Position numbers and translations under genes: made by a program. This document shows, piece after piece, positions 18,001-62,935 of a stretch of DNA of 64,000 nucleotides. This DNA comes from Dysidea avara (lineage: Eukaryota; Porifera; Demospongiae; Dictyoceratida; Dysideidae). Below the pieces are notes generated by a model that had not been told where the DNA came from, did not search any database, and was given only the letters and a program-made list of their open reading frames with translations. Location of the stretch: the NCBI RefSeq assembly GCF_963678975.1, contig NC_089274.1, positions 49,360,900-49,424,899 of the forward strand, written 5' to 3'. Position 1 is the first letter of the stretch. Each line of letters opens with the position of its first letter.

Positions 18001-21000
18001 AGCTACATACCAATTTTCAGCTCACTGCTCTAAGCGGTTTGCCTGGTAGGCGTGAAAAGTATTGGGAAAAAAATTGGTACTTCTGTTCACAAATTTCGAT
18101 TGCACAATTATTACACACCTTCAGTTTCATGTCATATCTCCGTGATCTTTATTTCGATGCTTTCAAACCACCAAAAGGCACTTTGATCTATCCACAAACC
18201 AATTTTCAACTCATTCCATGAAGCGGTTTACCCTGTAGGCATGACAACAAATTGATCTTGTTTTACATGAATAATTGGTAATAAATCCTTAACTGTTCAT
18301 TGGATTCGTACCAAATTTGATACTAGGATTCGCCTTTAAATTCCCTTTCTGTTTGCCAAATTTGAAGGTAATCTGAGTACGTGTTTGTGTTTTATAGCAA
18401 TTTTTGCAAGTGTGTGAAAAGACGAAGAAAAACAAGAAAAGATTGAAACTTTGGCTGCTCATATCTCGGAAATGGCTTGAGCGATTTTGGAATGTGGACT
18501 CCCCTAAGTGGTGGTCAACACTGTAGCAAATTTGGTTCCAATCAGGTAAGGTATCACCAAGATACAAAGGTGTGAAAATGACATTTTCTTTCTTCCTGTC
18601 AATATACCCACGGTGTGACGCGCCGGCTTCTTGGGCTGCACGACACACTATTATGTGTATTGATTCTAAACAAGGGACCTTTTAACTGCAGTTCACTACT
18701 ACCATCACAGAAGGCTATGTAGTTTGCGTAGGAAACTAAGCAGTAATGGATTGTTGTATGATTTTGCTTGATATTCATTAATAATAATATCATCTTACCT
18801 CTATGACATGTTGTACCTCCACCACTCCAAGTTCCTTCACTCTGACAAGTGCGTGATGTGCTACCACTGAGAAGATAACCTTCAACACAACTGAATCTGC
18901 AGGTGTCTTGGTATGAAGCCACCCCATCATCTCCAAACATGCATTCAATCATTCCATTATCAGGTTGACCGAGGTCAGGACAGGACACTATTAGTAAAAT
19001 TACACCACAGGTGAAATGACCTGTTTAACACATACCTCTATCACATGTTGTTGGCATACCACTCCAACCCCCATCACTCTGACAACTCCTCAAATTACTA
19101 CCACTAACTTCATAACCACTGTTACATGTAAATGTGCATGTGTCCTCAAAGGAAGCCACCCCATCATCACCAAGTGAGCAGCTGATTGCTCCATTAGTAG
19201 GTTCAGAGAGTGGAACACAACGAACTATTGAGGAGTTGTTATTTAACTACAGTGTACATTATATAATCACCGAACCTCTCCAACAAGTAGTTTCAGTACC
19301 ATTCCACCTTCCATCACTCAAACAAGTTCTACTATGACTACCACTGGTCAACTGGTATCCAGTATCACATGTAAAATTACATGTCACTTCATACACAACA
19401 TCCTGGTTACTTCCACTTGAACAAGAAATAGTTCCATTAGCAGGATGATTGAGAGTTGGACAGGACACTAATAACATAACGCAAACAAAGATAAACCATT
19501 TTACAACCAACAACTAACACACCTCTTGTACACATTGGTCCATCATTACTCCACATCCCGGTACTGAGACAAGTTCTTGAACTGCTGCCCATTATTTCAA
19601 AACCATCCACACAAGTGTATCGGCAGACATCTTGATATGATGTTGTTCCATCATCTCCATAGTCACACATCACTGATCCATGTTCAGGTTGTGGTAGTTC
19701 ATCACAAGGCACTACACATATAAGACATCTTGAGACTCATGCAATCATGACAACATTAAGTAATCTAGTTCACGACTATCGCCACACAAGGGTACGTGGT
19801 TTGTGTAGGAAAGTAAGCAGTAATAGGGTTGTGGATGATCAACTTGGCATATTCATTAAACGTACTGTGTTTGGTACTGTGTTATTGTTTGGGTCATCTT
19901 ACCTCTATCACATGTTTCAGTAGCACCACTCCAAGTTCCATCACTCTGACAATTGCGTGATGTGCTACCACTGAGGCGATAACCTTCAGCACAACTGAAT
20001 CTGCAAGTGTCTTGGTATGAAGCCACCCCATCATCTCCAAACATGCATTCAATCAATCCATTGTCAGGTTGATGGAGGTTAGGACAGGACACTATTAGTA
20101 AAATAACATGATAGGTGAAATGACTTGTTTAACACATACCTCTTGCACACGTTGTTTCCATATCACTCCAACTCCCATCACTATGACAAGCCCTCATACT
20201 ACTACCACTAACTTCATAACCACTGTTACATGTAAATGTGCACGTGTCCTCAAAGGAAGTCACCCCATCATCACCAAGTGAGCAGCTGATTGCTCCATTA
20301 GCAGGTTGAGGAAGTTGAACACAAGGAACTATTTAAGAGTTGTTAAGAACAGCATATATTATATAATCATCAAACCTCTTCCACAAGTAGCTTCAGTGCC
20401 ATTCCACCTTCCATCACTCAAACAGGTTCTACTATGACTACCACTGGTCAACTGATATCCAGTGTCACATGTAAAATTACACGTCACTTCATACACAGGA
20501 TCCTGGTTACTTCCACTTGAACAAGAAATAGTTCCATTAGCACGATGATTGAGGGTTGGACAGGACACTAATAATGTAAAAATAATATGCTGTTAAAACA
20601 AAAGGTGCTTGCCTACACGTACCTCTTGTACACCTTGGTTCATCATTACTCCACATCCCAGTACTGAGACAGGTCCTTGAACTGTTACCTATTAGTTCAA
20701 AACCATCCACACAAGTGTATCGGCAGACATCTTGATATGATGTTGTTCCATCATCACCATAGTCACAAGTGATCATACCATCTTCAGGTAGTGGTAGTTC
20801 ATTACAAGGCACTACATATATAAGACAACGTGTGACCCAATGGATTGTTGTATGATTTTGTGTGAAATTCATTACGATAATAAAGTCACCTTACCTCTAA
20901 GACATGCTGTACTTCCACCACTCCAAGTTCCATCACTCTGACAATTGCGTGATGTGCTACCACTGAGGCGATAACCATCAGCACAACTGAATCTGCAGGT

Positions 21001-33000: not shown

Positions 33001-36000
33001 CTGTTTAACACATACCTCTTTCACATGTTGTTGACATACCACTCCAACCCCCATCACTTTGACAACTCCTCAAATTACTACCACTAACTTCATAACCACT
33101 GTTACATGTAAAGGTGCACGTGTCCTCAAAGGAAGTCACCCCATCATCACCAAGTGAGCAGCTGATTGCTCCATTAGAAGGTTGAGGAAGCCGAACACAA
33201 GGAACTATTTAGGAGTTGTTAAGAACAGCATACATTATATAATCATCAAACCTCTCCCACAAGTAGCTTCACTACCATTCCACCTTCCATCACTCAAACA
33301 GGTTCTACTATGACTACCACTGGTCAACTGGTATCCAGTATCACATGTAAAATTACATGTCACTTCATACACAACATCCTGGTTACTTCCACTTGAACAA
33401 GAAATAGTTCCATTAGCAGGATGATTGAGGGTTGGACAGGACACTAATAACATAAAGATAAACCACTTTACAACCAACAACTAGCACACCTCTTGTACAC
33501 ATTGGTTCATCATTACTCCACATCCCTGTACTGAGACAAGTTCTTGAACTGCTGCCCATTATTTCAAAACCATCCGCACAAGTGTATCGGCAGATATCTT
33601 GATATGATGTTGTTCCATCATCTCCATAGTCACACATCACTGATCCATGTTCAGGTTGTGGTAGTTCATCACAAGGCACTACATATATAAGACATCATGA
33701 GACTCATGCAATCATGAGCACCTGATCTCTCTCTAAAAGAGAGACAGGATAACAAGTTATTGCGTGAAGAATTGCTCAGACGCAAAAGAAATGGCGAAAG
33801 TGAACTGATAATACGTAGAGGACAGATTGTTAGTAAAACCCCAACTGTAAACAGTTCTATGGATACTACTCAAGCTGTAGCAGACCAGCAGCATGCGTAG
33901 CCTAGGCTATTCAGTCCCGGCTGCCTCTAACGGATTTTCTGACCCTGACCAATTCTTTTCTGACCCTCCACATGACAAATCTAATCCAGTAGTTTCAAGT
34001 TTTAAATCTTTAAAATGTTGGTATACAAATGCAGATTCTTTGTCCAATAAATTAGATGAGCTTAAAACCAGAATCTCAGTTGACAAACCTGATATTGTGG
34101 CTCTTGCAGAGATCAACCCGAAATTTGGTGAATCTAATGTAGAACTTAGTATTCAAGGATATAACACTTTTTGTAATAATTTTCAACCTCACAAACGAGG
34201 AGTTTGTATTTTTGTTAACTCAAGTCTTCGTGCTTACAAGGATGATGCTTTGTGCTCTGTGGTATATTCCGAGTCAATTTGGTGTCGTATCCCCTTATCC
34301 GGTAATGACTGCTTACTCTTGGGTGTAATTTATCATTCCCCTAACAGTGACTCACTAAACTTTGACCACTTGTGCTCCTTGTTAACACAAGCTGTTGATA
34401 CTGGTGTGTCTCATCTACTTGTTGTCGGTGATTTTAACATGCCCTACATAAACTGGACATCTCTAACTGTCACACCTGCTAATACTTACAATGAGGCCTT
34501 TCTAAGCCTATTGGATGACCTATATCTTATCCAACATGTCACATTTCCCACTAGATTTAGAAGCAACCAAGTTCCTTCCTTGCTGGACCTTATATTAACC
34601 AACGATGAAAATACAGTGTCTAGTATGACCTCTTTATCGCCACTTGGAAAAAGTGATCATATTGTTATAGAGTTTGTCTTTTTGTGTTATTGCACAGTGG
34701 AATGCCATAGTGTATCTAAATACCTATATAACCGTGGAGATTATGTATCAATGACTAGAGATTTATTGAACACCAACTGGGAAGTACTCTTTGAAGGACT
34801 CAATACTGAGAAAATGTGGCTACTTTTCCACTCTAAACTGTTATTTCTTATTGACAAATATGTTCCTACTCAAACATTTGAATCTAATTCTAAACCTAAG
34901 TGGCTAAATTCTTCTACTCTTAAAGCAATTAAACAGAAACATAAAGCATGGAACACCTATAAAGCCACTCACCATCATGTCGATTATCTTTCCTACACCA
35001 CAAAGAGAAACATTGCCACTGCTACTGTTAAAAGGGCTAAATCCAATTTTGAACTTAAGCTTGTTGATAGTGTCAAAGAAAATCCATCTGTGTTCTGGAA
35101 ATATGTTAAAGAGAATGCAAAAGTGCGCTGTGATATCATGTCCTTAAGGAAAGGGGATGGATCATTCACCTGTTCTGATCGTGAAACAGCTCGATGTTTA
35201 AATGATTTTTTCTCTGGTGTATTTACTATTGAGCCAGAAGCAGATCTGCCATCTTTACCAGATAAATCTATGGGCCACCACTTAGGCAATATTACCATCA
35301 CACACTGTGATATATTAACTGAACTCAACCAGCTTAAGCCAAATAAATCTTGTGGCCCAGACAACTGTCACCCACGTGTGTTGAAAGAAATCAAAGATGG
35401 ACTTATTTTACCCCTCTATCTCCTATTTAATAAATCAACATGGGTTTCGTAGCAGGAGATCTTGTGAGATGCAGCTATTGACTGTTATGGAACACTGGAC
35501 TAGGTGTATCGATGATGGAACTAGTGTTGATGTTGTGTACCTAGATTTCCAAAAAGCTTATGATAAGGTTCCCCACAGACGTTTGCTGACTAAGTTAGAA
35601 GCATATGGTGTTAATGGCTCGGTACTTCATTGGATTAAGGCTTTTTTATCAAACAGGAAGCAACGAGTAGTTGTTCGTGGAGCACTCTCTGAGTGGTCTA
35701 CTGTCACTAGTGGTGTCCCGCAGGGTAGTGTGCTCGGTCTCATCTTATTTATTATATATGTCAACGACCTACCTGACTGTATACAGAGCTATTTGGGTAT
35801 CTTTGCTGACGACACAAAACTTTATCGCCCCATCTGCTCATCTGAAGATTCCTCCATTCTGCAGGAAGACATTGATTCCGCTTTGCAATGGTGTGACACA
35901 TGGCTATCCTTCCTTAACCTTCCTAAATGTCACTACAGCACAATTGGACATTCTTCATCAAACACAGAGTATTATTACTCATCCGAAAATGAAGCAAATA

Positions 36001-54000: not shown

Positions 54001-57000
54001 ATTAGCAGGATGATTGAGGGTTGGACAGGACACTAATAACATAAAGATAAACCACTTTACAACCAACAACTAGCACACCTCTTGTACACATTGGTTCATC
54101 ATTACTCCACATCCCTGTACTGAGACAAGTTCTTGAACTGCTGCCCATTATTTCAAAACCATCCACACAAGTGTATCGGCAGATATCTTGATATGATGTT
54201 GTTCCATCATCTCCATAGTCACACATCACTGATCCATGTTCAGGTTGTGGTAGTTCATCACAAGGCACTGCATATATAAGACATCATGAGACTCATGCAA
54301 TCATGAGAACATTAAGTTTTCTAGATGTAGTTCACAACTATCACCACACAAGGTTACATGGTTTGTGTAGGAAAGTAAGCAGTGGATGATCAACTTAGCA
54401 TATTCATTAAATGTACTATGTTTGGATAATAAGGTCACCTTACCTCTATGACATGTTGCAATACCACCGCTCCAAGTTCTATCGCTCTGACAATTGCGTG
54501 ATGTGCTACCACGGAGACGATAACCATCAGCACAACTGAATCCGCATGTGTCTTGGTATGAAGCGACCCCATCATCTCCAAACGTACAATCAATCATTCC
54601 GTTATCAGGTTGACCGAGGTCAGGACAGGACACTATTAGTATAATTACATCACAGGTGAAATGATTTGTTTAACACCTACCTCTTGCACATGTTGTTGTC
54701 ATACCACTCCAACTCTCATCACTCTGACAAGTCCTCATACTGCTACCTCTAACTTCATAACCACTGTTACATGTAAATGTGCACGTGTCCTCAAAGGAAG
54801 CCACCCCATCATCACCAAGTGAGCAGCTAATTGCTCCATTAGCAGGTTGAGGAAGTCGAACACAAGGAACTATATAGGAGTTGTTAAGAACAGCATACAT
54901 TATATAATCATCAAACCTCTCCCACAAGTAGCTTCAGTACCATTCCACCTTCCATCACTCAAACAGGTTCTGCTATGACTACCACTGGTCAACTGGTATC
55001 CAGTATCGCATGTAAAATTACATGTCACTTCATACACAGCATCCTGGTTACTTCCACTTGAACAAGAAATAGTTCCATTAGCAGGATGATTGAGGGTTGG
55101 ACAGGACACTAATAACATAATGCAAACAAAGATAAACCACTTTACAACCAACAACTAACACACCTCTTGTACACAATGGTTCATCATTACTCCACATCCC
55201 TGTACTGAGACAAGTTCTTGAACTGCTGCCCATTATTTCAAAACCATCCACACAAGTGTATCGGCAGATATCTTGATATGATGTTGTCCCATCATCTCCA
55301 TAGTCACACATCACTGATCCATGTTCAGGTTGTGGTAGTTCATCACAAGGCACTACATATATAAGACATCATGAGACTCATGCAATCATGAGAACATCAA
55401 GTTTTCTAGACGTAGTTCACTACTATCACCACACAAGGGTACATGGTTTGTGTAGGAAGGTAAGCAGTAATAGATCGTGGTAGGGTTGTGAATGATCAAA
55501 TTAGTATATTTGTAACAGAGGTCATTATATTATTATTTTGTAATAGCTACAGATTATCATATTGTTGTAATTTTCACACTTTAGGTAGAGGATTAACACT
55601 TGGATTGTAAATAGGAATAAGGTCTTGGTATGTAACCCGGGATGAGGCTTTGGTTTGAAGGACAGATAAAAGTTGATGTCAATGTTGAGTAGCAACAGTT
55701 GTCACGATCTAACACTGGCGTGGTTGGCAGGATCGATCTCTCCGGCCAAGCAACTAATCCTGAACCTCATGCAAAGAAGCTGTGGTACCGTGGTAGGTTT
55801 GTGTGTGATAATGGTACCCAGAAAGGTTGGACAATAGTATACCACTGCTCGGTTGTTTCTTTGTTATCTTCTTTTAGAGCGGCCAGAGAAGTTGAGCTGG
55901 TCAGTGATTGTGAATGGCAATGGATCCGGGACCAGCTAAAGCTTGCCATCGATCAAGTAAACTGCTAATTCTGTCTGACACTTTTTGTGGAGAAGGAAGC
56001 TTTGTTCCTGGAATCAACATTTTGAAAGCGTGGCCATTATCAATGGATGGAACGATGTAGAGAAATTACAGTGGATGCACGTGCGCCTGACAGGAAAAGC
56101 CCACGTGGTGCTCACACGTGTCAGTCATAAGTCCTATCAAGAAGTAAAGGAAGTTCTGAAAGAACGTTTCGACTCGCCCGTGGTGACAGAACTGAATTAC
56201 AGTCTCGAGTGAAACGGAAGTCTGAGAGCTGTGGCGATTATGCAGACCAACTTAATGTACTCACGGACAAAGCCTACCCAGAACTGGAGGAGGAGGTAAG
56301 AAAGTATATTGCACTAAACCTGGATCAGCTACAGCAGCCGCAGATAGCCCTTGCAGTAAGACAGGAGCGACCAAGGACATTAACAGAAGCAGTCAAGGCA
56401 ACACTAGAGCTAGAAACCTTTTTACCAAGGCATAATGAATGCGGTGAAGATAATCAGGACGTGGCTGTATCAAGGCAGGTATCTTCGCAGGAAGCTGATG
56501 TTCCAGTTAAGATAGACACACTCAGTAGTATTACTACGTTGTTGGAAAACCTCAAGGCACAATTAACACAGCTAGAAGTTAAAGTTGAGAAAAAGCTAAG
56601 ATGTTGGCACCCTTGTAAAATAGATTCTCACCAAAGAGGAAGACATGCAAGGGTTCAAGCTTACAAGCAACAACACTTTGCTCACAAAAATACTAAGACA
56701 TCCCATGATCATCGCCAAGCATCAGAGGATATACTATCTCCCTCACAGGTACATCAATGTGATAGTGTGTCAAAAAATGGTGTAGGTATCATTGCTATAA
56801 ATAGTGTATCAAACTATTCAGTGCTTGCAAGTGTATTTGGAAACCCAAGTATCCTTCCTAGTGGGCACTGGGGCTTCAGTATCACTTATTTGTGGGGAGA
56901 TATGGGACCGTATAAAGTCACCTTACCATCCCAAATTAACTCCAGTGAGCACACGTTTGGTGGGTGCCGATGGCTCTCCATTACAAACTCAGGGGTCAAC

Positions 57001-60000
57001 AGTGGTGGAATTAACTATCTCAGAGCAGATGTTTAAGCAAGAACTAATTATAGTCAACTCATTAACATCTGAGGGAATCCTAGGATTGAACTTCCTAGAA
57101 GCCAATGGGTGCATTTTAGACTTGGTTCGTGGGGAGTTAATTACTCGGGGTTCAAGAGTAGCTCTATCTGCCAAAAATTCTGAACCAACTACTGCACAGG
57201 TAGAGATTTGTATCCAAGAATCCTTTACTGTTGCGGGCTTCAGTGAAATGGAGGTCATGGGTGAGATACCTCTAGCCTGTAAGGGAAACTGGTTGGTAGA
57301 GAACAAAGAATCTAAGAAACCTCAAGTATTAATAGCAAGGGCAATTGTTGCATGGTCTTGTGCCCCTACGTGTGTTAAATCTTGAGTCACAACCTATCAC
57401 AGTGTTTAAAGGGACCAGAGTTGCCAAAGCAGAAGCCATTGACCCTACTAGGGAAATATCAACTGTGGGTAGACAGTCCAACACCAGATGCACTGAGAAA
57501 GAATGGGAAGAAGTGTTAAGTAACATCATGCAACAGACGCCTGCTAGCCTTAATGATCACCAACTTCAACAATTAAGTGCATTGTTAACACATTATGCTT
57601 ACATATTTGCTGTGCATCCTAATGACCTGGGCAGTACTAATATACTAAGTCATAAGATTGAAACTTGTGGTAGCCCTATTCGACAACCTGTGAGGCGTAT
57701 ACCATTACCCCAGAGGGATGAGATCAAGAAGCTTTTGACAGAAATGCAGGAAAAAGATATCATCACACCATCAAAAAGTCCATGGGCTTCTCCTATTGTA
57801 TTAGTACCTAAAAAGGATGGCTCTGTGCGGTTTTGTATTGATTATCGAAAAATTAATGAATTAACCCACAAGGATGCTTACCTAATACCAAGGATAGATG
57901 ACACTCTAGATACACTCGCAGGGTCAAAGTGTTTTTCAACACTAGACTTAAAAAGTGGGTATTGGCAGGTGGAGGTAGACAAGGACCACAGAGAAAAAAC
58001 AGCTTTTTGTACCCATGAGGGTTTATTTCAATTTAATGTGATGCCGTTTGGGTTATGCAATACCCCGGCAACATTTCAGCACCTGATGGACATGGTGCTA
58101 ATGGGCTTACAATGGACCAGCTGTATAGTGTATATTGACGATATTATCATAGTAGGCAAAGATTTTAATAATCATCTAAACAATTTACGTCATGTTTTTG
58201 AGCGCTTAGATAAAGCAGGGTTGAAGCTGCAGCCACACAAATGTCAATTTCTGCAGCCAGAAGTCCAATTTTTGGGTCACCTTGTATCAGCAGATGGAAT
58301 TTTGCCAGACCCTACAAAGACTTCCCGGGTAAAGCAATGGCCAACATCAACATCTGTTAAAGAGACTCAGCAATTTCTAGGCCTTGCTAGCTATTACCAA
58401 AGATTTATTAAGAATTTTGCAATGATTGCCGCACCGTTACACAAGTTGTCAGAGAAGAAGACACAGTTTCGATGGACTAATGAATGCCAAGATGCATTTG
58501 ATTGTATGAAGGATCACCTGGTATCAGCACCTGTTTTAGCCTTGCTGGATTGGTCTAAACCATTTGTTCTAGATACTGATTCCAGTGATACAGGTATTGG
58601 AGCAGTCTTGTCACAGATCCATGACAACAAGGAACACGTGGTAGCTTATGCTAGCAGAACGTTAATAAAAACTGAACGCAATTATTGTGTCACAAGAAAG
58701 AGTTGTTAGCAGTGGTGGCTTTCCTTCAACACTTCCGCCTTTCCTCCTGAGTGCACCATTCACTATCTGCACTGATCATGGTGCACTGGTATCAGGCTTG
58801 CTGCAATTACCCACTGAAAGTAATCAGTACAATTACAATTACTTTTTGAAGCCAATCTAATGATTACAATTACAATTACTTCAGTTTGTAAAATAATGAT
58901 TAATAATTACAACTACTTTTCAATTACTACTGTACATCAGGGTACAACAATAACTTACAATTCTCCAGCATTACTCTTAAGGTATTTTAACTGTTCAAAC
59001 TTTTTTGGTAATAGTCTACATCTATATTTGGTCTGAGAACATTGCCACTATGGCTGAATACATACTCATATGGTACAAAATTAATGTTGCTGGAACTCCC
59101 AGCTATTCTTTGCTATTGTACTTAAAATGGGGTATTTATCTTCCAAAATTTTAAAGGGCTTTCATCCTTTGTAAACTTTGTGTCATCTAGATATTTTAAA
59201 TTCTTTCTCTGCTATTGAACATTATGTACCCCATGGGTATCCCATACTGTACATAAATTGGATTGGGTATTGGATTACACAATCCCATGTGTACATGGGA
59301 TTGTGTACATAGTCACTAGTCAAGTTATGGAGTAGTACTTTTATATAGCATAACTTTGATTCCTTACATTTAATTACATAATGATTATTGACTGAACAGC
59401 TAATTACAATTACAATTACAATTACTTGAAAATTGCTAATGATTAGTAATTAATTATGATTACAATTACAACAAGCCTGATTGGCATGGATTCAAAGATT
59501 TAAAGAACCAGAAGGGCAAGTTGCTCGTTGACTGCAGAAGCTACAGGAGTAGTATGGTGGAGCGGTTTAATAGAACACTGTTGAGTATGCTAGCTGCTCA
59601 CTGTAAAAAACACCCCTGGGATTGGGAGGAGCATTTCCGTAAAGTTTGTATGGCATACAGTACACGTGTTCATGCATCCACTGGCTTTTCACCATTTTAT
59701 TTAATGTATGGTCGCCAGGCTAGACTACCAGTAGATTCCATGTATGGTACTACCAGACCTGTTATCCACCAGTCACCCAATGAGTATGCTGCTACTTTGG
59801 ACAAACAATTGAAATCTGCCTTTGAACTAACCCATAAAACTGCTGGGGTACAACGCGAACGTCAGAAACATCACTATAACCAGAAAGTTCATAGCAATTC
59901 ATATAACCCAGGTGTTGTTAAATCCAAAAGTACCAAAGAACAGCAGTAAACAGCTTTTCCATCCTTGGACTGGACCATTCAAGGTACTGAAACAACTGTC

Positions 60001-62935
60001 TGAATGCACATACAGAGTGCAGAAACTTGAGGGGAAGAGACATAGACAAGTGGTCCATTTTAATCGTTTAAAGCCATGTCCAAAGATATTAGACTGAACA
60101 GTGATAGTCAACCTGCACAGACCAATGTCTCCTGAGAAGCGTGATACAGAGGTACAGGACCAGAGACCTCCTCAGTCATCACCAGTGGGGACCTACTTGG
60201 AGTTAATAGATATGATGACGTTGAGTTGGCTGTTGATCATCCTACCACCACCCCTCCTTCACACCAACCGATACAACAAAGACGTAATACTCCACGGCAA
60301 TGAAATCCTCCAGTAAGATTGCAAGACTACGTGAGATCATGAATATGGGACATATTCTTAAGAGGGGAAGTAGTGTAACAGAGGTCCTTATATATAATAG
60401 CTACAGATTATCATAGTTTTGTAATTGTCACACTTTAGGCAGAGGATTAACAGATGGATCGTAAATAGGAATAAGGTCTTGGTATGTAACCCGGTATGAG
60501 GCTTTGGTTTGAAGTAGAGCTGGGGAATAGTAAAAAAATATCAAGTATCAAGATATAAATTTTCAAATCGTATCGTGATATTTAGCCTCTACACTATCGT
60601 GATGCATGCAACACTTCTAAATGACTACTAAATAGTTCTATTCATGAACCATATTGTTGTATTTTCACAAGAAAGGAGCAATGATTAGGTGTAAACAATG
60701 TATAAATAGCAAGTTTGTTCACAGAATTCTCAATTGTACAAGCAGCTAACTACTGATCTGTCATTTAGACACTATCGTGATACATATCATTATTGTGACA
60801 TTTTCATTACTATCAATCGTCTTGTAAAAATTTTGCTATCGCCCACCTCTAGTTTGAAGGACAGATAAATGTTGCTGTCAATGTTAGGGTCACGATCTAA
60901 CATATTCATTAAATGCACTGTGTTTAGGTCACCTTACCTCTATGACATGTTGCAATACCACCACTCCAAGTTCCATCGCTCTGACAATTACGTGATGTGC
61001 TACCACGGAGACGATAACCATCAGCACAACTGAATCTGCATGTGTCTTGGTATGAAGCGACCCCATCATCTCCAAACGCACAATCAATCATTCCGTTATC
61101 AGGTTGACTGAGGCCAGGACAGGACACTATTAGTAAAATTACATCACAAGTGAAATGATTTGTTTAACGCCTACCTCTTGCACATGTTGTTGTCATACCG
61201 CTCCAACTCTCATCACTCTGACAAGTCCTCATACTGCTACCTCTAACTTCATAACCACTGTTACATGTAAATGTGCATGTATCCTCAAAGGAAGTCACCC
61301 CATCATCACCAAGTGAGCAGCTGATTGCTCCATTAGTAGGTTGAGGGAGTGGAACACAACGAACTATTGAGGAGTTGATATTTAACAACAGTGTACATTA
61401 TATAATCACCAAACCTCTCCCACAAGTAGCTTCAGTACCATTCCACCTTCCATCACTCAAACAGGTTCTACTATGACTACCACTGGTCAACTGGTATCCA
61501 GTATCACATGTAAAATTACATGTCACTTCATACACAGCATCCTGGTAACTTCCACTTGAACAAGAAATAGTTCCATTAGCAGGATGATTGAGGGTTGGAC
61601 AGGACACTAATAACATAAAGATAAACCACTTTACAACCAACAACTAGCACACCTCTTGTACACATTGGTTCATCATTACTCCACATCCCGGTACTGAGAC
61701 AAATTCTTGAACTGCTGCCCATTATTTCAAAACCATCCGCACAAGTGTATCGGCAAATATCTTGATATGATGTTGTTCCATCATCTCCATAGTCACACAT
61801 CACTGATCCATGTTCAGGTTGTGGTAGTTCATCACAAGGCACTGCATATATAAGACATCATGAGACTCATGCAATCATGAGAACATTAAGTTTTCTAGAT
61901 GTAGTTCACTACTATTGCCACACAAGGGTACGTGGTTTGTGTAGGAAAGTAAGCAGTGGATGATCAACTTAGCATATTCATTAAATGTACTGTGTTTGGA
62001 TAATAAGGTCACCTTACCTCTATGACATGTTGCAATACCACCGCTCCAAGTTCCATCACTCTGACAATTGCGTGATGTGCTACCACGGAGACGATAACCA
62101 TCAGCACAACTGAATCTGCATGTGTCTTGGTATGAAGCGATCCCATCATCTCCAAACGTACAATCAATCATTCCGTTATCAGGTTGACCGAGGTCAGGAC
62201 AGGACACTATTAGTAAAATTACATCACAGGTGAAATGATTTGTTTAACACCTACCTCTTGCACATGTTGTTGTCATACCACTCCAACCCCCATCACTCTG
62301 ACAACTCCTCATACTGCTACCTCTAACTTCATAGCCACTGTCACATGTAAATGTGCACGTGTCCTCAAAGGAAGTCACCCCATCATCACCAAGTGAGCAG
62401 CTGATTGCTCCATTAGTAGGTTGAGAGAGTGGAACACAATGAGCTATTCAAGAGTTGTTAAGAACAGCATACATTATATAATCACCAAACCTCTCCCACA
62501 AGTAGCTTCAGTACCATTCCACCTTCCATCACTCAAACAGGTTCTACTATGACTACCACTGGTCAACTGGTATCCAGTATCACATGTAAAATCACATGTC
62601 ACTTCATACACAACATCCTGGTTACTTCCACTTGAACAAGAAATAATTCCATTAGCAGGATGATTGAGAGTTGGACAAGACACTAATAACATATTACAAG
62701 AATAGTAAAACTGCTTACAGCTGATTTATTGTACCTCTGGTGCACATCACATCAACGTTGCTCCATGTACCATCAACTTGACATGTGCTGGTATTACTAC
62801 CCATTAATTCAAAGCCAGTTGCACAGGTGTAAGTACAGTTGTCTTGATAAGATGGCACTCCATCAAGGCCATAATTACAATTAACAAATCCATGCTCAGG
62901 TTGTCTTAATTCATCACAAATTATACCAAGTCTCA
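1..62935 (-). CDS. Giant CCP (sushi)-repeat receptor tyrosine kinase gene, both ends outside window
   Basis: A multi-exon gene read from right to left. Seen: 31 four-exon CCP cassettes (62935-18799), one exon with two further CCP modules, a transmembrane exon with a basic stop-transfer stretch, a tyrosine-rich juxtamembrane exon, and kinase exons ending at the APE motif at 166. Junctions follow GT-AG and keep frame: CCP exons are all phase 1-1, and the kinase exons join in the order 1320/1255, 1188/1128, 875/788, 510/459 and 309/258. About 8,300 codons are visible. Known: CCP modules are roughly 60-residue, two-disulfide adhesion or recognition folds, and the HRDLAARN loop marks a tyrosine kinase. 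Inferred: a plasma-membrane receptor with a very long stalk-like ectodomain. Neither the signal peptide nor the kinase C-lobe lies in the window. Whether all modules enter one transcript is unknown. Confidence 0.85.
166..258 (-). CDS. Kinase exon: DFG, activation loop, APE
   Basis: This 31-codon, phase-0 exon encodes IADFGMSRDLIDVDYYMTSG followed by RKIPVKWTAPE. DFG is the magnesium-binding motif. The adjacent tyrosines in DVDYYMTSG match the autophosphorylation position of receptor tyrosine kinase activation loops, and the PVKWTAPE ending is typical of tyrosine rather than serine/threonine kinases. The acceptor is AAACAG just above 258; the donor after GAG at 166 is GTAATA. The next exon (kinase subdomains IX-XI) lies beyond the left edge. 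Confidence 0.93.
309..459 (-). CDS. Kinase exon: catalytic loop HRDLAARN
   Basis: This 151-nt exon encodes the end of the alpha-D/alpha-E region (LLLKFCREIAAGMAYLNGKR) and the catalytic loop FVHRDLAARN, with the catalytic aspartate and the AAR signature of tyrosine kinases, ending ILISDKFICK. The acceptor is CTTTTAG above 459, and its first base completes a serine codon with the previous exon. The donor after 309 is GTAAGTTT. The segment SSSRVHSKLPVL before the alpha-E helix is a linker of the length expected in this region. Confidence 0.94.
510..788 (-). CDS. Kinase exon: glycine loop, VAAK lysine, alpha-C, hinge
   Basis: This 279-nt exon encodes TLEHLGSGEFGIVTHAVLHT (ATP-binding glycine loop), then EVAAKTL with the ATP-orienting lysine, FLQEAFMMCQFDHENVIKLY with the alpha-C glutamate, and the hinge MILLEYMPCGDLQNFL. 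Residues needed for catalysis in this part are all present. The acceptor is CTAACAG above 788; the donor after 510 is GTAAGA. Its first base joins the two bases left over from the juxtamembrane exon to give N-TLEHLG. Confidence 0.93.
875..1128 (-). CDS. Juxtamembrane exon rich in tyrosine motifs
   Basis: This 254-nt exon starts in phase 0 after GTGTAG and ends two bases into a codon before GTACAT. It encodes SSEHYINLNAHKYSTLERAV and onward to IYHTDI. Six tyrosines lie in short acidic or hydrophobic contexts (YINL, YSTL, YVPA, YDTP, YDFP, YKSL). The pattern YxxP or YxxL resembles SH2-docking or inhibitory sites in known receptors, so phosphorylation is an inference. The choice of acceptor is fixed by frame: the alternative AG five bases further in does not fit the phase-0 donor at 1188. 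Confidence 0.85.
1188..1255 (-). CDS. Small cytoplasmic exon between membrane segment and juxtamembrane exon
   Basis: This 68-nt exon (22 codons plus a split codon) encodes DYCETDMSQDFTVYNTDYIT followed by TKT. It is bounded by the acceptor AACATAG above 1255 and the donor GTAAGTT after 1188. It starts two bases into a codon, matching the single G left by the transmembrane exon, and ends in phase 0. It is acidic and has three tyrosines. Its size would allow skipping only with a frame change. Confidence 0.8.
1320..1514 (-). CDS. Transmembrane exon
   Basis: This 195-nt exon, phase 1 in and phase 1 out, encodes a short acidic juxtamembrane ectodomain (TNDPIEKEDGGG), a hydrophobic run starting VFFVAATAAAVGVLIILIVL and ending about FV, then the basic stop-transfer KRSRKKRKYN. 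This orients the CCP side outside and the kinase side inside. The acceptor is TTTAATAG above 1514; the donor is GTATCA after 1320. It joins in frame to the last CCP exon (7017), giving an asparagine at the junction. Confidence 0.9.
1515..2084. other. Intron sequence without recognisable features
   Basis: AT-rich sequence upstream of the transmembrane exon. I see no open frame with domain similarity, no clear inverted repeat and no tandem repeat. Confidence 0.6.
2085..2525. mobile_element. Foldback element family 2, copy 1
   Basis: Inverted arms run around GGGATCCAAGCAATAAAAAA / TTTCATTTGGATTCC and GATGGTATTGCAGTATAAC / GTTATGTAATACCATC, meeting near 2395. The flanking 2085-2275 block (ACCACACCTCTTAACAATCT and CTAATAGAACAGTCAC) recurs in reverse complement at 11580-11745, beside the second copy. 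No coding capacity. This is probably a non-autonomous DNA transposon; no target-site duplication could be assigned. Confidence 0.6.
2546..3385. repeat. GC-ended terminal block of composite element, copy 1
   Basis: It begins AAGACCGGCGCGCCACACCG and contains degenerate tandem segments sharing GGTAAACC..CTT..GAATGAG.TGAAAAT, offset by about 188 bp (2953 and 3141). Related phrases such as GAGTTATGAC recur near 2911, 3068 and 3256. It ends at CTAATAGAACAGTCACCC, after which the minisatellite starts. The mirror copy is at 17846-18631. Confidence 0.6.
3386..6460. repeat. 31-bp minisatellite array, forward orientation
   Basis: Monomers of 30-31 bp share the core TGTAGAGAGTTCAGCTACAAA. Three flavours alternate: one ending AAAGAAACCATCA, one AAACAAATCACCC and one AGAAGAAGTCACCT. 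Together they form an approximate 92-bp higher-order unit. The array is interrupted by an LTR-element remnant at 4075-4544. Not a CRISPR array: there are no unique spacers and monomers abut directly. Confidence 0.85.
4075..4544 (+). mobile_element. LTR-retrotransposon 3' end fossil within minisatellite
   Basis: A purine-rich tract (GAAGGAGGGAGTGA) directly precedes a 165-bp block at 4380-4544 that begins TGTAACAGAG and ends CCGTTACA, the usual TG...CA form of an LTR. The start resembles the LTR of the element at 55511-60902. Minisatellite lies on both sides. Only the 3' end is recognisable; the fossil is broken and lacks pol. Family probably Ty3/Gypsy. Confidence 0.5.
6603..6927. repeat. Palindromic (foldback) module, copy 1
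   Basis: The arms start TAATCAAAAACAGCT and end AGCTGTTTTTGATTA. They remain nearly complementary throughout, via AAATCCAAGGTGGC / GCCACCTTGGATTT and TTAATGGTAAAAATTTTAAT. The centre is near 6765. It is about 76% identical by eye to 14088-14412. Strong single-strand hairpin potential. Non-coding. Confidence 0.8.
7017..7397 (-). CDS. Last ectodomain exon: two CCP modules in one exon
   Basis: This 381-nt exon, phase 1-1, has acceptor GTTACAG above 7397 and donor GTAAGTG after 7017. The first module starts PCVSLSDPENGNVTCPSNTS, has the CCP framework C..GY.L.G....C..DGTWS and ends PVTC. The second (CNDPEVEI to SFGC) keeps CCP-like cysteines and a late tryptophan but is diverged. Unlike the array exons, two modules share one exon and the sequence is not part of the homogenised repeat. 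It splices directly to the transmembrane exon in frame. Confidence 0.85.
7398..8912. other. AT-rich intron, no recognisable feature
   Basis: Start of the 11.4 kb intron between the CCP array and the double-CCP exon. No CCP exon, tandem repeat or convincing inverted repeat was seen. Confidence 0.6.
8913..8951. repeat. Short strong hairpin
   Basis: CAGGAGTTTATAAACGCC is followed, after three bases, by GGCGCTTATAAACTCCAG. This gives a nearly perfect 18-bp stem. It lies just left of a TA-flanked MITE; function unknown. Confidence 0.7.
8990..9244. mobile_element. TA-flanked MITE with about 26-bp terminal inverted repeats
   Basis: The left end CAGTACCACCCAAAGGTAAC is matched by the reverse complement of the right end (CAGTACCGCCCACAAGTAAC); both continue GTTAC. 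The element is 255 bp and has TA directly outside each end, as expected for Tc1/mariner-type insertion. No coding capacity. Confidence 0.7.
9245..9634. other. Intron sequence without recognisable features
   Basis: AT-rich, between the TA-flanked MITE and the ATGT microsatellite. Nothing supported. Confidence 0.6.
9635..10003. repeat. (ATGT)n tetranucleotide microsatellite
   Basis: About 370 bp of ATGT repeats with scattered GCATG and GTGTG variants. The Met-Tyr-Val-Cys open frames across it on both strands are by-products of the repeat and are not genes. Confidence 0.97.
10004..10465. other. Intron sequence without recognisable features
   Basis: AT-rich, between the microsatellite and a short hairpin. 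No supported gene or repeat. Confidence 0.6.
10466..10555. repeat. Stem-loop repeat with 24-bp arms
   Basis: GATATGTAATGGCTGTAACACGAG pairs with CTCGTGTTACAGCTAATATG. The loop contains a small inner inverted repeat AGGCAAAGCCT. It could be a tiny foldback element; it does not fold as a tRNA by eye. Confidence 0.6.
10763..10870. repeat. Short dispersed repeat, copy 2
   Basis: It matches 1-95 from CTGCCCAGTTG to GAGGTATGAAAGTG. It contains imperfect inverted units of ATGTAGCCCAGCTGG / GTAGCCCAGCTACAT. Confidence 0.65.
10871..11269. other. Intron sequence without recognisable features
   Basis: AT-rich; no supported coding or repeat feature. Confidence 0.55.
11270..11745. mobile_element. Foldback element family 2, copy 2 (inverted relative to copy 1)
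   Basis: Arms of about 110 bp (TTGTTAATTTAAAAATGAAG / CTTCATTTTTAAATTAACAA, and CAAGAGATGAATTATGGTAT / ATACCATCATTCATCTCTTG) meet near 11400. The right flank (CTATTAGAGTGACTGTT, then AGATTGTTAAGAGGTGTGGT) matches the reverse complement of 2085-2275, so flank and palindrome belong to one longer element. Confidence 0.7.
11779..13900 (-). mobile_element. Ty3/Gypsy retrotransposon fossil (gag edge, protease, RT, RNase H)
   Basis: Two open stretches (13875-12583 and 12582-11779) read in the host gene's direction. In order they resemble a gag N-terminal region (about 13875-13580), an aspartic protease region (about 13480-13200), reverse transcriptase (about 13050-12480) and RNase H (about 12250-11950, with HKPLILLLG). 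Integrase and LTRs are not recognisable, so this is a truncated fossil, broken at least twice. The protein sequence differs strongly from the element at 55511-60902, so it is a different lineage of the same superfamily. Confidence 0.85.
14088..14412. repeat. Palindromic (foldback) module, copy 2
   Basis: Arms run from TGATCAAAAGCAGCCAAGCT to AGCTTGGCTGTTTTTGATTA and are complementary over about 150 bp each. The centre is near 14250. Homologous to 6603-6927. Confidence 0.8.
14640..17845. repeat. 31-bp minisatellite array, reverse orientation
   Basis: The same monomer family as 3386-6460 in reverse complement, with the core TTTGTAGCTGAACTCTCTAC and the variants TTTCTAGCTGATCTCTCTAC and GATGGTTTCTTTGTAGC. 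It is more degenerate than the other array and contains one block in the opposite orientation. Confidence 0.85.
16347..16650. repeat. Orientation-reversed block inside the minisatellite
   Basis: Monomers switch to TGTAGAGAGTTCAGCTACAA orientation at about 16347 and switch back near 16645. The right junction is a palindrome, CATCCTGTAGAG-TT-CTCTACAGGATG. This suggests an internal inversion or a foldback duplication of about 300 bp. Confidence 0.75.
17846..18631. repeat. GC-ended terminal block of composite element, copy 2
   Basis: Reverse complement of 2546-3385. It starts with CTCTATTAGAGTGACTGTTC, contains the GGTTTGCCTGGTAGGCGTGA and GGTTTACCCTGTAGGCATGA tandem segments about 190 bp apart, and ends in the CGCGCCGGC terminus. 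Open frames across it on either strand have no domain similarity. Confidence 0.6.
18799..19711 (-). CDS. CCP cassette 31 (last): exons D-C-B-A
   Basis: Exons: D 19711-19523, C 19467-19276, B 19224-19036, A 18987-18799; introns 55, 51 and 48 nt. Each exon is one CCP module with four cysteines, a late tryptophan and a terminal (R)G split by the intron. C ends TTCWRG, unlike the usual ATCGRG. A is a hybrid (IECMFG start, VEGYLLSG, SGGGTTCHRG). B is the SGSNLRS type. It is more diverged than central cassettes, as expected at an array edge, and is followed by the 11.4 kb intron. Confidence 0.9.
19903..20811 (-). CDS. CCP cassette 30
   Basis: Exons: D 20811-20623, C 20567-20376, B 20328-20140, A 20091-19903. 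Distinctive residues: D has PEDGMITCDYG and NSSRTC, which makes an N-S-S sequon; C has NHRANG and QDPVYEV; B is a hybrid of the two flavours (SGSSMRACHSD); A starts CPNLHQPDNGLIEC. One of the most diverged cassettes. Confidence 0.9.
20895..21803 (-). CDS. CCP cassette 29
   Basis: Exons: D 21803-21615, C 21559-21368, B 21320-21132, A 21083-20895. The D-C intron is the 55-nt form. A is a hybrid (CSDFGQPDNG, IECMFG, SGGSTACLRG). B has a glutamate in the acidic loop (GDDEVTSFED). Confidence 0.9.
21981..22880 (-). CDS. CCP cassette 28
   Basis: Exons: D 22880-22692, C 22645-22454, B 22406-22218, A 22169-21981. C reads SGSQSRTC, unique to this cassette. A is the IDCTFG/RLRG flavour with SSGIATC, paired unusually with the SGSNLRS flavour of B. 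B starts LPSNGAIS, one proline-glutamine step shorter in similarity than its relatives. Confidence 0.9.
23072..23971 (-). CDS. CCP cassette 27
   Basis: Exons: D 23971-23783, C 23736-23545, B 23497-23309, A 23260-23072; introns 46, 47 and 48 nt. C carries several private changes (CTSGSNQD, TGYHLTSG, CLGDGRW). A is the IECMFG/CDRG flavour with AEGYLLSG. Confidence 0.9.
24148..25060 (-). CDS. CCP cassette 26
   Basis: Exons: D 25060-24872, C 24816-24625, B 24573-24385, A 24336-24148. 55-nt D-C intron. B is the RGSSMRT flavour ending TTICARG and starting RCVPLSEPTNG, like cassettes 31 and 2. A is the IDCTFG flavour with SSGIATC. Confidence 0.9.
25238..26137 (-). CDS. CCP cassette 25
   Basis: Exons: D 26137-25949, C 25902-25711, B 25663-25475, A 25426-25238. 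C starts PCPTLNH, a variant shared with cassettes 17, 19, 20, 22 and 23. D has CDNGDDG where others have CDYGDDG. A has TCRFNCAEGYRLRG and SDETWSGG. Confidence 0.9.
26321..27220 (-). CDS. CCP cassette 24 (3229-bp repeat family)
   Basis: Exons: D 27220-27032, C 26985-26794, B 26746-26558, A 26509-26321. C ends NGSEATC, so its third glycosylation sequon is NGS. A is the IECMFG/CDRG flavour, B the SGSNLRS flavour. Exon proteins are identical to cassettes 21 and 18, which lie exactly 3229 and 6458 bp to the right. Confidence 0.92.
27397..28296 (-). CDS. CCP cassette 23 (3229-bp repeat, third position)
   Basis: Exons: D 28296-28108, C 28061-27870, B 27822-27634, A 27585-27397. C starts PCPTLNH. 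A is IDCTFG with VTSYQD. B has FFED where most have SFED, shared with cassette 20 only. D reads DICQYTC. Confidence 0.92.
28467..29366 (-). CDS. CCP cassette 22 (3229-bp repeat, second position)
   Basis: Exons: D 29366-29178, C 29131-28940, B 28892-28704, A 28655-28467. C starts PCPTLNH; A is IDCTFG with VASYQD; D has FEIIGSSS in place of FEIMGSSS. The same combination occurs in cassette 19. Confidence 0.92.
29550..30449 (-). CDS. CCP cassette 21 (3229-bp repeat, first position)
   Basis: Exons: D 30449-30261, C 30214-30023, B 29975-29787, A 29738-29550. C ends NGSEATC. A is the IECMFG/CDRG flavour. Identical in protein to cassettes 18 and 24. Confidence 0.92.
30626..31525 (-). CDS. CCP cassette 20 (3229-bp repeat, third position)
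   Basis: Exons: D 31525-31337, C 31290-31099, B 31051-30863, A 30814-30626. C starts PCPTLNH, A has VTSYQD, B has FFED. D reads DICRYTC, differing from cassette 23 at one residue. Confidence 0.92.
31696..32595 (-). CDS. CCP cassette 19 (3229-bp repeat, second position)
   Basis: Exons: D 32595-32407, C 32360-32169, B 32121-31933, A 31884-31696. C starts PCPTLNH; D has FEIIGSSS and PMCIRG; A has VASYQD. Same protein as cassette 22. Confidence 0.92.
32779..33678 (-). CDS. CCP cassette 18 (3229-bp repeat, first position; below LINE copy 1)
   Basis: Exons: D 33678-33490, C 33443-33252, B 33204-33016, A 32967-32779. C ends NGSEATC; A is IECMFG/CDRG. The A-to-D intron entering this cassette holds LINE copy 1, in antisense orientation to the gene. 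Confidence 0.92.
33716..36280 (+). mobile_element. CR1/Jockey-like LINE copy 1, two internal deletions
   Basis: Non-LTR retrotransposon in an A-to-D intron, antisense to the host gene. ORF 33893-35452 starts with an APE-type endonuclease (WYTNADSLSNK, ALAEINPK, VVGDFNMP, KSDHIVIEF) and enters the reverse transcriptase; ORF 35397-36209 carries RT motifs DVVYLDFQKAYDK, GVPQGSVLG and FADDTKL. Compared with copy 2 it lacks about 196 bp of early RT (breakpoint near 35436) and about 417 bp near the 3' end (near 36147), so it cannot encode a whole protein. It ends in (AAT)n; ATGAG flanks both sides, a short target-site duplication. No ORF1 is seen, so the 5' end is probably truncated. Confidence 0.93.
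36420..37319 (-). CDS. CCP cassette 17 (above LINE copy 1)
   Basis: Exons: D 37319-37131, C 37084-36893, B 36845-36657, A 36608-36420. C starts PCPTLNH; B is the RGSSMRT flavour; A is IDCTFG/RLRG. The intron after A begins normally and is interrupted at 36280 by the LINE tail. The intron variant GTACGTCG next to the LINE is shared only with cassette 13. Confidence 0.92.
37503..38402 (-). CDS. CCP cassette 16
   Basis: Exons: D 38402-38214, C 38167-37976, B 37928-37740, A 37691-37503. A is IECMFG/CDRG with an SCPDL start; B is SGSNLRS ending MTTTCERG. It closely resembles cassettes 12 and 7. Confidence 0.92.
38579..39492 (-). CDS. CCP cassette 15
   Basis: Exons: D 39492-39304, C 39248-39057, B 39004-38816, A 38767-38579. 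The D-C intron is the 55-nt form; the C-B intron carries an extra ACCGG-like insertion (near 39013) shared with cassettes 11 and 6. D has GTASYQD; B has GETSFED; A has SCVDGYRLRG. Confidence 0.92.
39676..40575 (-). CDS. CCP cassette 14 (below LINE copy 2)
   Basis: Exons: D 40575-40387, C 40340-40149, B 40101-39913, A 39864-39676. C ends NGSEATC as in cassettes 18, 21 and 24. B has the DGSNLRS variant. The A-to-D intron entering this cassette holds LINE copy 2. Confidence 0.92.
40613..43438 (+). mobile_element. CR1/Jockey-like LINE copy 2, 5' deletion
   Basis: Same element, same insertion point and same flanks as copy 1. ORF 40806-43367 (853 residues) covers the C-terminal two thirds of the endonuclease (VVGDFNMP, SDHIVIEF), a full-length RT region (NYRPISLTS, GVPQGSVLG, FADDTKL) and a C-terminal region. 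About 350 bp present in copy 1, including the early endonuclease with its catalytic glutamate segment, is missing near 40662. A net 9-bp loss replaces VVYLDFQKAYDK by VRFPKRFDK, removing the first catalytic RT aspartate. Dead despite its long frame. (AAT)n tail. Confidence 0.93.
43578..44486 (-). CDS. CCP cassette 13 (5433-bp repeat, position 5; above LINE copy 2)
   Basis: Exons: D 44486-44298, C 44242-44051, B 44003-43815, A 43766-43578. C has QDTVYEV and ends CERG; B has FEDMCTFACNSG. These private variants recur only in cassette 8, 5433 bp away. The A-to-D intron leads into LINE copy 2. Confidence 0.92.
44678..45577 (-). CDS. CCP cassette 12 (5433-bp repeat, position 4)
   Basis: Exons: D 45577-45389, C 45342-45151, B 45103-44915, A 44866-44678. 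A is IECMFG/CDRG with SCPDL; B is SGSNLRS. Counterpart of cassette 7, except that cassette 7's B has the DGSN variant. Confidence 0.92.
45754..46667 (-). CDS. CCP cassette 11 (5433-bp repeat, position 3)
   Basis: Exons: D 46667-46479, C 46423-46232, B 46179-45991, A 45942-45754. C has QDAVYEV; D has GTASYQD; A has TCGFSC and ends CRRG; B has SIRTC. Counterpart of cassette 6. Confidence 0.92.
46859..47758 (-). CDS. CCP cassette 10 (5433-bp repeat, position 2)
   Basis: Exons: D 47758-47570, C 47523-47332, B 47284-47096, A 47047-46859. A is IECMFG/CDRG with PCPDL; B has DGSNLRS. Counterpart of cassette 5. Confidence 0.92.
47935..48834 (-). CDS. CCP cassette 9 (5433-bp repeat, position 1)
   Basis: Exons: D 48834-48646, C 48599-48408, B 48360-48172, A 48123-47935. 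C has SGSNSRTC; B has GETSFED and ends CERG; A has VTSYQDTCGFSC. These three rare variants recur together in cassette 4. Confidence 0.92.
49011..49919 (-). CDS. CCP cassette 8 (5433-bp repeat, position 5)
   Basis: Exons: D 49919-49731, C 49675-49484, B 49436-49248, A 49199-49011. C has QDTVYEV and CERG; B has FEDMCTFACNSG; A has QSDRTWSGG, shared with cassette 3. Confidence 0.92.
50111..51010 (-). CDS. CCP cassette 7 (5433-bp repeat, position 4)
   Basis: Exons: D 51010-50822, C 50775-50584, B 50536-50348, A 50299-50111. A is IECMFG/CDRG with SCPDL; B has DGSNLRS; C is the consensus form. Confidence 0.92.
51187..52100 (-). CDS. CCP cassette 6 (5433-bp repeat, position 3)
   Basis: Exons: D 52100-51912, C 51856-51665, B 51612-51424, A 51375-51187. 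55-nt D-C intron, C-B intron with the extra ACCGG segment. C has QDAVYEV; D has GTASYQD; B has GETSFED. Confidence 0.92.
52292..53191 (-). CDS. CCP cassette 5 (5433-bp repeat, position 2)
   Basis: Exons: D 53191-53003, C 52956-52765, B 52717-52529, A 52480-52292. A is IECMFG/CDRG with PCPDL; B has DGSNLRS. Confidence 0.92.
53368..54267 (-). CDS. CCP cassette 4 (5433-bp repeat, position 1)
   Basis: Exons: D 54267-54079, C 54032-53841, B 53793-53605, A 53556-53368. C has SGSNSRTC; B has GETSFED and CERG; A has VTSYQDTCGFSC. D has CRYTCVDG where cassette 9 has CRYTCADG. Confidence 0.92.
54444..55352 (-). CDS. CCP cassette 3 (below Ty3/Gypsy insertion)
   Basis: Exons: D 55352-55164, C 55108-54917, B 54869-54681, A 54632-54444. 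C has QDAVYEV; A has TCGFSC with QSDRTW; D ends PLCTRG. The intron entering D is interrupted at 55511 by the Ty3/Gypsy fossil. Confidence 0.92.
55511..55714 (+). repeat. 5' LTR of the Ty3/Gypsy fossil
   Basis: Starts TGTAACAGAGGTC and ends CACGATCTAACA. It matches 60374-60902 once the nested insertion in the latter is set aside. A possible primer-binding region (CTGGCGTGGTTGG) follows directly. Confidence 0.85.
58793..59479. mobile_element. hAT-like non-autonomous element nested in the Ty3/Gypsy fossil
   Basis: 687 bp bounded by CAGGCTTG and CAAGCCTG. The inverted ends extend imperfectly to about 17 bp (CAGGCTTGCTGCAATTA / CAGGCTTGTTGTAATTG). The interior is rich in AATTACAATTAC. Eight bases outside each end, ACTGGTAT and ATTGGCAT, match at six positions, fitting an aged 8-bp target-site duplication. 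No transposase is encoded. Confidence 0.75.
60374..60902 (+). repeat. 3' LTR of the Ty3/Gypsy fossil, split by a MITE
   Basis: Preceded by the purine tract AAGAGGGGAAGTAG. Starts TGTAACAGAGGTCC and ends CACGATCTAACA. A 337-bp MITE interrupts it at 60515. Confidence 0.85.
60515..60851. mobile_element. hAT-like MITE inserted in the 3' LTR
   Basis: Ends TAGAGCTGGG and CCCACCTCTA are inverted with one mismatch, as in the TAGAGGTGGG-type hAT termini. A perfect 8-bp duplication GTTTGAAG lies at 60507-60514 and 60852-60859. The 5' LTR shows the unoccupied site (TTTGGTTTGAAGGACAG). Non-coding. Confidence 0.88.
60938..61841 (-). CDS. CCP cassette 2
   Basis: Exons: D 61841-61653, C 61606-61415, B 61363-61175, A 61126-60938. 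C has SGSYQDAVYEV, removing the usual SNQ; B starts RCVPLPQPTNG; A starts CPGLSQPDNG and has IDCAFG. D has SRICLST where others have SRTCLST. The A exon ends 36 bp from the Ty3/Gypsy fossil, within the shortened host intron. Confidence 0.9.
62018..62935 (-). CDS. CCP cassette 1 (most 5' in window)
   Basis: Exons: D 62935-62735 (201 nt), C 62682-62491, B 62443-62255, A 62206-62018. D is the most diverged D exon (VRLGIICDELRQPEHGFVNC, NYGLDGVPSYQD) and has its own sequons (NCT, NTS). Its acceptor GAATAG above 62935 gives phase 1, as in all others. C has lost two of its three usual sequons (NGIIS, CDFTC). B mixes both flavours (RGSSMRSCQSDGGW). This is the array edge; no earlier CCP exon is visible up to 64000. 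Confidence 0.87.

Follow-up and report, generated by a model that had tools for sequence, protein, structure and literature searches.

The window, a stretch of 64,000 nucleotides on contig C3, raises the question of whether a long array of CCP modules and a tyrosine kinase encoded further along the same strand belong to a single receptor, and of what an array of this length would do. The reading that we favor, and to which we assign a probability of about two in three, is that of a single gene spanning ~81 kb, whose product of 8,541 residues would be a type I receptor tyrosine kinase with 127 modules that serve as a multivalent antenna. The genome searched for related loci comprises 550.8 Mb in 108 contigs. 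The array itself consists of the following features.

18799..62935, minus strand: CCP array of 124 single-CCP exons in 31 D-T-V-P cassettes, delimited with a CCP model built on the window and by splice ends.
62735..62935, minus strand: opening D module of the array, the most divergent of its type, with an acceptor shifted 12 nt upstream and the phase unchanged.

The window-built CCP model located exactly 124 modules between 18806 and 62921 on the minus strand, following one another strictly as D-T-V-P thirty-one times, i.e. as 31 cassettes of four. An earlier note on this DNA had claimed 124 CCP modules in 31 cassettes on one strand at 18799-62935, and our count, order and coordinates agree with it exactly; the array start that it placed at 62935 also holds, with the acceptor of the first D exon lying 12 nt further upstream than in the other copies. 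The assignment of 124 of 124 modules comes from a model built on window modules and is not independent of them. Searches with the Pfam Sushi family (PF00084) gave matches above the curated cut-off for all four array modules tested (E 9e-11 to 3e-9), and likewise in one further test (1/1). The classical CCP form has four conserved cysteines. A pattern demanding exactly four was rejected, as it failed in all 124 array modules because every one of them has six cysteines (124/124), with a spacing of 12-13-3-13 or 14-12; over the whole predicted ectodomain the cysteines number 762, or 6 x 127 modules.

Each module occupies one exon, and exon length is constant across the 31 copies (D 189, T 192, V 189 and P 189 nt), save that the first D exon has 12 nt more at its start. 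No stop was found in 7,843 array residues, and no indel among the 124 exons. A GT donor in phase 1 is present in 124 of 124 exons and an AG acceptor at the expected place in 123, the exception being the first D exon. The phase of all array exons is 1-1, so that the frame is kept whatever the number of cassettes. The introns within cassettes are 46-55 nt long. The acceptors of many array introns (18799-62935) sit in a TACTAATAG setting, and some rows of alignments A1 and A2 have ends that extend a few residues into the intron.

Exons on either side of the array, within the window and past both of its edges, were joined to it to give the gene model. From the predicted start to the stop codon, the exons outside the array are these.

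68659-68716 (window scale, stretch L013), minus strand: candidate signal-peptide exon, noticed by eye, whose frame fits.
65580-65786 (window scale, stretch L013), minus strand: additional CCP exon upstream of the array, past the right edge of the window.
7017..7397, minus strand: membrane-proximal exon with two modules of six cysteines each.
1308..1514, minus strand: transmembrane exon, VFFVAATAAAVGVLIILIVLLCIVVQF then KRSRKKRK, the span read by eye.
1188-1255 and 875-1128, minus strand: two juxtamembrane exons carrying tyrosine motifs, among them IYDTP and IYDFPP.
510-788, minus strand: kinase exon K1.
309-459, minus strand: kinase exon K2.
166-258, minus strand: kinase exon K3.
7221-7334 and 7082-7167 of stretch L012: kinase exons K4 and K5, past the left edge of the window.
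7839-8025 of stretch L011: last exon, located by motif scan and then read, which encodes HPDPRSRPQF and a tail that ends in NLYLNLQQIYL before the stop codon.

The predicted protein totals 8,541 residues from 136 exons, with 80,878 bp from start to stop (C3:49348738-49429615) and no internal stop. Its computed mass, taken through K3 and leaving glycosylation aside, is 900 kDa. Its frame is open over 133 exons and 8,413 residues, with no stops, from the signal exon through K3; the remainder is made up of 38 residues from K4, 28 from K5, one split codon and 61 from the last exon. Phase 1 is common to the 128 introns that lie between the signal exon and the first juxtamembrane exon. The 127 predicted modules are 125 single-exon CCP modules and the two in the membrane-proximal exon. 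The best match elsewhere to the CCP exon upstream of the array is 53% identical to it, and the window-built model found no further CCP modules in 140 kb upstream and part of 40 kb downstream. In the membrane-proximal exon, the first module matches Pfam Sushi with E 6.9e-17. The second, divergent module gave no match in the Pfam Sushi search; it scores 10.4 bits against the window-built CCP model and reaches a probability of 91.7% over 28 columns against a CCP profile, and by this profile comparison it appears as a distant CCP relative.

The exit from the array into exons starting at 7397 and 1514, which the earlier note had described as in phase, was found to be phase 1, and a membrane span and a tyrosine kinase follow it. 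The membrane exon has the donor GTCAGT and is in frame on either side, placing a single membrane span, read by eye, between ectodomain and kinase. Counterparts of the juxtamembrane tyrosine motifs are present in two relatives that are described below (IYETP and GPIYxxPP in L032; in L027 by eye from DNA), and the IYDTP and IYDFPP settings of these tyrosines suggest docking of signaling partners. Exons K1-K3 encode the motifs LGSGEFG, VAAK, HRDLAARN, DFG and APE and match Pfam PK_Tyr_Ser-Thr with E 4.7e-54. Past the left edge of the window, the kinase part contains DVWSYG, with K4 79% and K5 66% identical to C-lobe exons of L027. When K1-K5 are joined, the Pfam match improves to E 8.5e-80 over positions 5-241 of 258, and the best solved chains, with the first 171 residues compared, are those of EGFR and Eph receptors. 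As predicted from these exons, the kinase is a complete tyrosine kinase domain with its catalytic motifs.

The candidate signal exon was evaluated by two scans. The first, which set a higher hydrophobicity threshold and tolerated charged residues, did not pick up 68716 but proposed a candidate at 66869. Under the rules of the second, which were set after 68716 had been seen, it is the sole candidate on the minus strand in 62930-69000; the same rules return six starts at four loci in the next 31 kb and two candidates on the plus strand of that 6-kb stretch. The candidate therefore does not exceed background. A DNA-level search of the genome for a second copy of this exon found only the exon itself.

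Comparison of the array with itself revealed similarity at several scales. A shift of 5,433 bp (five cassettes) aligns 6.6 kb at 99.1% identity, a shift of 3,253 bp (three cassettes) aligns 9.6 kb at 97.5%, and a 12-kb block is repeated within the array at 93.7%. Mean exon identity is 0.955-0.969 at lags of 1-12 cassettes, and exons of cassettes two places apart are more alike (0.969) than those of direct neighbors (0.955). For much of its length, the array alternates between two classes of cassette. The 31 copies encode 16 distinct proteins for D, 12 for T, 20 for V and 17 for P. A retroelement insertion is present twice with the same flanks (100% identical over 160 bp and 99.1% over 346 bp), the two copies differing in their internal losses, and was therefore duplicated together with array sequence. 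The duplication pattern is one of apparent repeated unequal exchange, which would keep the modules alike.

The introns of the gene model carry a variety of repeats. Both copies of the non-LTR retroelement, which has endonuclease and reverse transcriptase, lie in array introns on the plus strand; the copy at 40650-43367 has a 905-residue open frame and that at 33881-36209 is broken into two frames. LTR-type elements, Ty3-like by reading, occupy two introns, at 11779-13884 (minus strand) and 56131-59949 (plus strand). Both have reverse transcriptase and RNase H matches, and the second includes an integrase-like frame at 59443-59949, recognized by eye. Arrays of a 31-bp satellite at 3397-6465 and 14760-17814, mostly in opposite orientation, lie in the introns that flank the two-CCP exon, with similar repeats upstream in L013, and a (TATG)n microsatellite of 92 units is found at 9634-10003.

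The genome contains several relatives of this gene. The nearest paralogue (C3:49054000-49136223) lies 300 kb off and has a kinase N-lobe exon that is 97% identical and a two-CCP exon that is 87% identical to those of the window gene. Upstream of these exons and on the same strand are at least seven cassettes, seen as seven D matches (75-88%) and seven T matches (97-98%); the two genes thus have cassettes and kinase in common, with fewer modules seen in the paralogue. Array and kinase follow one another in the paralogue as they do here, and three of its cassettes were read. Each of the 13 modules examined contains six cysteines, with its acceptor placed as in the window array, and the base preceding the donor GT is G in 10 of the 13 and A in the other three. 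The 5' end of the paralogue was not found in stretch L031, nor the kinase C-lobe in the stretch examined. The locus L027 (C3:45503000-45512999) is compact, with two single-CCP exons, six two-CCP exons, a membrane exon and the kinase all within 8 kb. Its membrane-proximal two-CCP exon is 87% identical to that of the window gene and it shares the kinase, whereas it has 14 modules in 10 kb and six two-CCP exons compared with one here. Two-CCP exons are followed by juxtamembrane and kinase frames in L032, and by a membrane exon, with a kinase match further along, in L033. Within the latter, a relative on C11, a same-strand open frame without a CCP match lies between two CCP exons (L033:4106-4666) and possibly represents an extra domain.

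Beyond these loci, kinase N-lobe matches at E<=1e-15 number at least 96 in the genome (best 150 of 334 candidates scored), and the predicted window gene belongs to this large kinase family. The related tyrosine kinases are clustered, mainly on C3 and also on C4, C6 and C14, one having an internal stop, among the matches listed. We also collected close two-CCP exons, defined by at least 56% identity over at least 114 of 128 residues. This gave 22 exons, one of them an 80% match covering residues 3-116, and excluded two matches of lesser length (56 and 60%). A kinase match lies within 20 kb downstream in 12 of the 22, among the kinase matches listed. No such match within 20 kb downstream is among those listed for the other 10 (on C3, C4 and C9), which may have other tails or kinases outside the matches listed. 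The presence of a two-CCP exon therefore does not prove that a kinase follows. On contig C9, an isolated remnant of a cassette (L036:4958-5629) contains D, P and a truncated T; V was not found, and no kinase match is listed there. A nuclear COX1 remnant has TGA at Trp sites and AGR at Arg sites, the sites being judged as conserved, which fits a non-bilaterian animal, probably a sponge.

Taken together, these comparisons indicate that the CCP array and the kinase most likely form one gene, because the phase is continuous, the frame stays open to the stop, the paralogue has the same order, and the CCP exons of L027 run straight into membrane and kinase exons. Alternatively, they could be two neighboring genes, one for a CCP protein that is secreted or anchored in another way, the other for a kinase with its own first exon in 7397-18799. 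The intron that would link array and kinase is 11.4 kb long and holds satellites and a retroelement, and its only matches to the paralogue stretch are at non-corresponding places, as repeats do. Together with the C9 remnant and the 10 of 22 two-CCP exons that have no kinase nearby among the matches listed, and with a signal exon upstream of the array that is only a candidate, the content of this gap speaks for a split. However, phase 1 continues on both sides of the gap, array and kinase occur in the same order at two loci, and L027 carries both parts without any gap. Neither scan found a candidate signal exon on the minus strand of the gap (7396-18800), a weak argument given that the density of candidates in the next 31 kb predicts ~1.5 for a gap of this size. 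We therefore consider two separate genes unlikely. Less probable still is that the length of the array is an assembly error. Long near-identical repeats are difficult to assemble, but 52 mismatches over 6.6 kb separate even the closest of the long pairs listed, and the retroelement copies, with flanks 99-100% alike, have lost different internal parts.

A further question is whether the array modules are under constraint. After dropping the most divergent (first) D exon, we counted 175 distinct exon variants, 60 of them synonymous and 115 nonsynonymous, with no stop among them. Between 5.8 and 7.9 stops would be expected, and the deficit has P values from 3e-4 (transition weight 1) to 3e-3 (weight 5). 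Over the range of transition weights, the ratio of nonsynonymous to synonymous variants is 0.55-0.77 of neutral. The synonymous excess drops to P 0.03 at transition weight 5; this and the preceding P values assume independent variants, an assumption that gene conversion may violate. A simpler count over all modules gave nonsynonymous/synonymous ratios of 0.34-0.61 by module type. Alignment gaps are likewise confined to introns, with 20, 5 and 0 gap columns in the three classes of cassette-internal intron and 132 between cassettes (counted in those 27 of the 30 introns that are under 400 nt), against none in exons. Mean divergence is 0.019-0.059 in exons versus 0.060-0.090 in introns, with V and P exons almost as diverged as the short introns. 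The contrast in gaps between exons and introns and the deficit of stops are more than chance.

We infer from the joined exons that the gene is transcribed as a whole and that its array works as a very long multivalent antenna. With 127 modules, mostly near-copies of four types, above one kinase, the receptor would offer many equal binding sites and thereby high avidity and clustering. Near-copy modules of few types would bind a repetitive ligand, such as a glycan, matrix or microbial surface, with high avidity, and this multivalent binding would cluster receptors so that their kinases phosphorylate each other. The number of cassettes would rise and fall through unequal exchange. Near-identity of the copies favors repeated binding of one type of ligand over 124 different specificities.

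Other uses of the same array have to be weighed against this antenna. A neutral origin, in which the array is a recent expansion whose extra in-frame cassettes are tolerated and whose number has no function, is possible though we would not expect it. Higher-order duplications such as the 6.6 kb at 99.1% identity, the retroelement insertion duplicated along with its flanks, and the far fewer cassette matches in the paralogue are all in its favor. Against it are 124 exons without stop or indel, the ratio at 0.55-0.77 of neutral and the six cysteines kept in every array module, although this selection is shown on modules and not on module number. Somewhat more doubtful is that the full array is rarely made, with phase 1-1 exons skipped or chosen to give many shorter isoforms from a store of interchangeable modules. 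The frame would survive the skipping of any set of array exons, and the short cassette-internal introns with their like splice sites could permit varied joining; yet the modules are homogenized rather than diversified, with 12 to 20 distinct proteins per 31, and choice among them would therefore add little diversity. A bolder extension of the antenna reading, which we put forward as speculative, is that unequal exchange makes cassette number differ between individuals, giving each its own receptor length and avidity for use in recognition of self and non-self or of symbionts. If such a length-variable antenna exists, it would, as far as we know, exceed all other CCP chains in length and rank with the largest receptor kinases.

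Returning to the multivalent antenna that we favor, transcription as predicted would give an ectodomain of about 8,050 residues. A CCP module measures ~3.5 nm, and the stretched ectodomain would thus extend roughly 0.4 micrometre. Such a receptor would lend itself to testing how avidity and kinase clustering depend on the number of repeats, and the relatives described above suggest that CCP receptor kinases form a large family in an early-branching animal.

Among known systems, human complement receptors 1 and 2 resemble the predicted protein in their long CCP chains, and a window module matches 2q7z (E 4e-36) and 2gsx (E 2e-37), values that apply to whole chains and are summed over modules. 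These receptors have about 30 and 15 modules, respectively, with four cysteines per module and no kinase, whereas the window gene has six cysteines per module and, if the gene model holds, a kinase. Six cysteines are found in selectin repeats, and a window module matches the E-selectin consensus repeats (4c16) with E 3e-13; E-selectin, in contrast, has few modules behind a lectin domain and no kinase. In the open literature that we searched, which leaves most subscription papers outside its reach, we found no receptor kinase described as bearing a long CCP array. The available text of PMC3584944 does describe RTKB2 of the choanoflagellate Monosiga brevicollis, a receptor tyrosine kinase that resembles the window gene in having an SCR/CCP module in its ectodomain. 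RTKB2 has one SCR beside hyalin-like and EGF modules, compared with 127 CCP modules here, and unlike this layout the joined exons upstream of our membrane exon encode only CCP modules and the signal exon. According to the same text, the receptor kinases of M. brevicollis lack direct homologues among multicellular organisms, and the Amphimedon genome has 150 receptor kinase genes (PMC3584944). Genes whose expression changes after LPS in Halichondria panicea reportedly include kinase genes that carry sushi domains, a combination of kinase and sushi domains in one gene of a sponge; the available part of that report gives no module numbers, layout or giant array (PMC8242945). Since sushi-kinase genes of a sponge are reported to respond to bacterial LPS, ligand recognition by the expanded kinases becomes testable (PMC8242945, as far as its available part describes them). 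The earlier note's proposal of one gene with CCP array, membrane span and kinase is borne out by phase, frame and paralogues, but its further proposal of an undescribed class is not supported, as worded, by comparison with the kinase family of this genome and with these reports (PMC3584944, PMC8242945). A wholly new class is too strong a claim because CCP-bearing kinases are known from a choanoflagellate and a sponge. CCP-bearing receptor kinases have already been reported, and the window gene is an extreme variant of them, in which what is new is the scale, a homogenized array of 127 modules.
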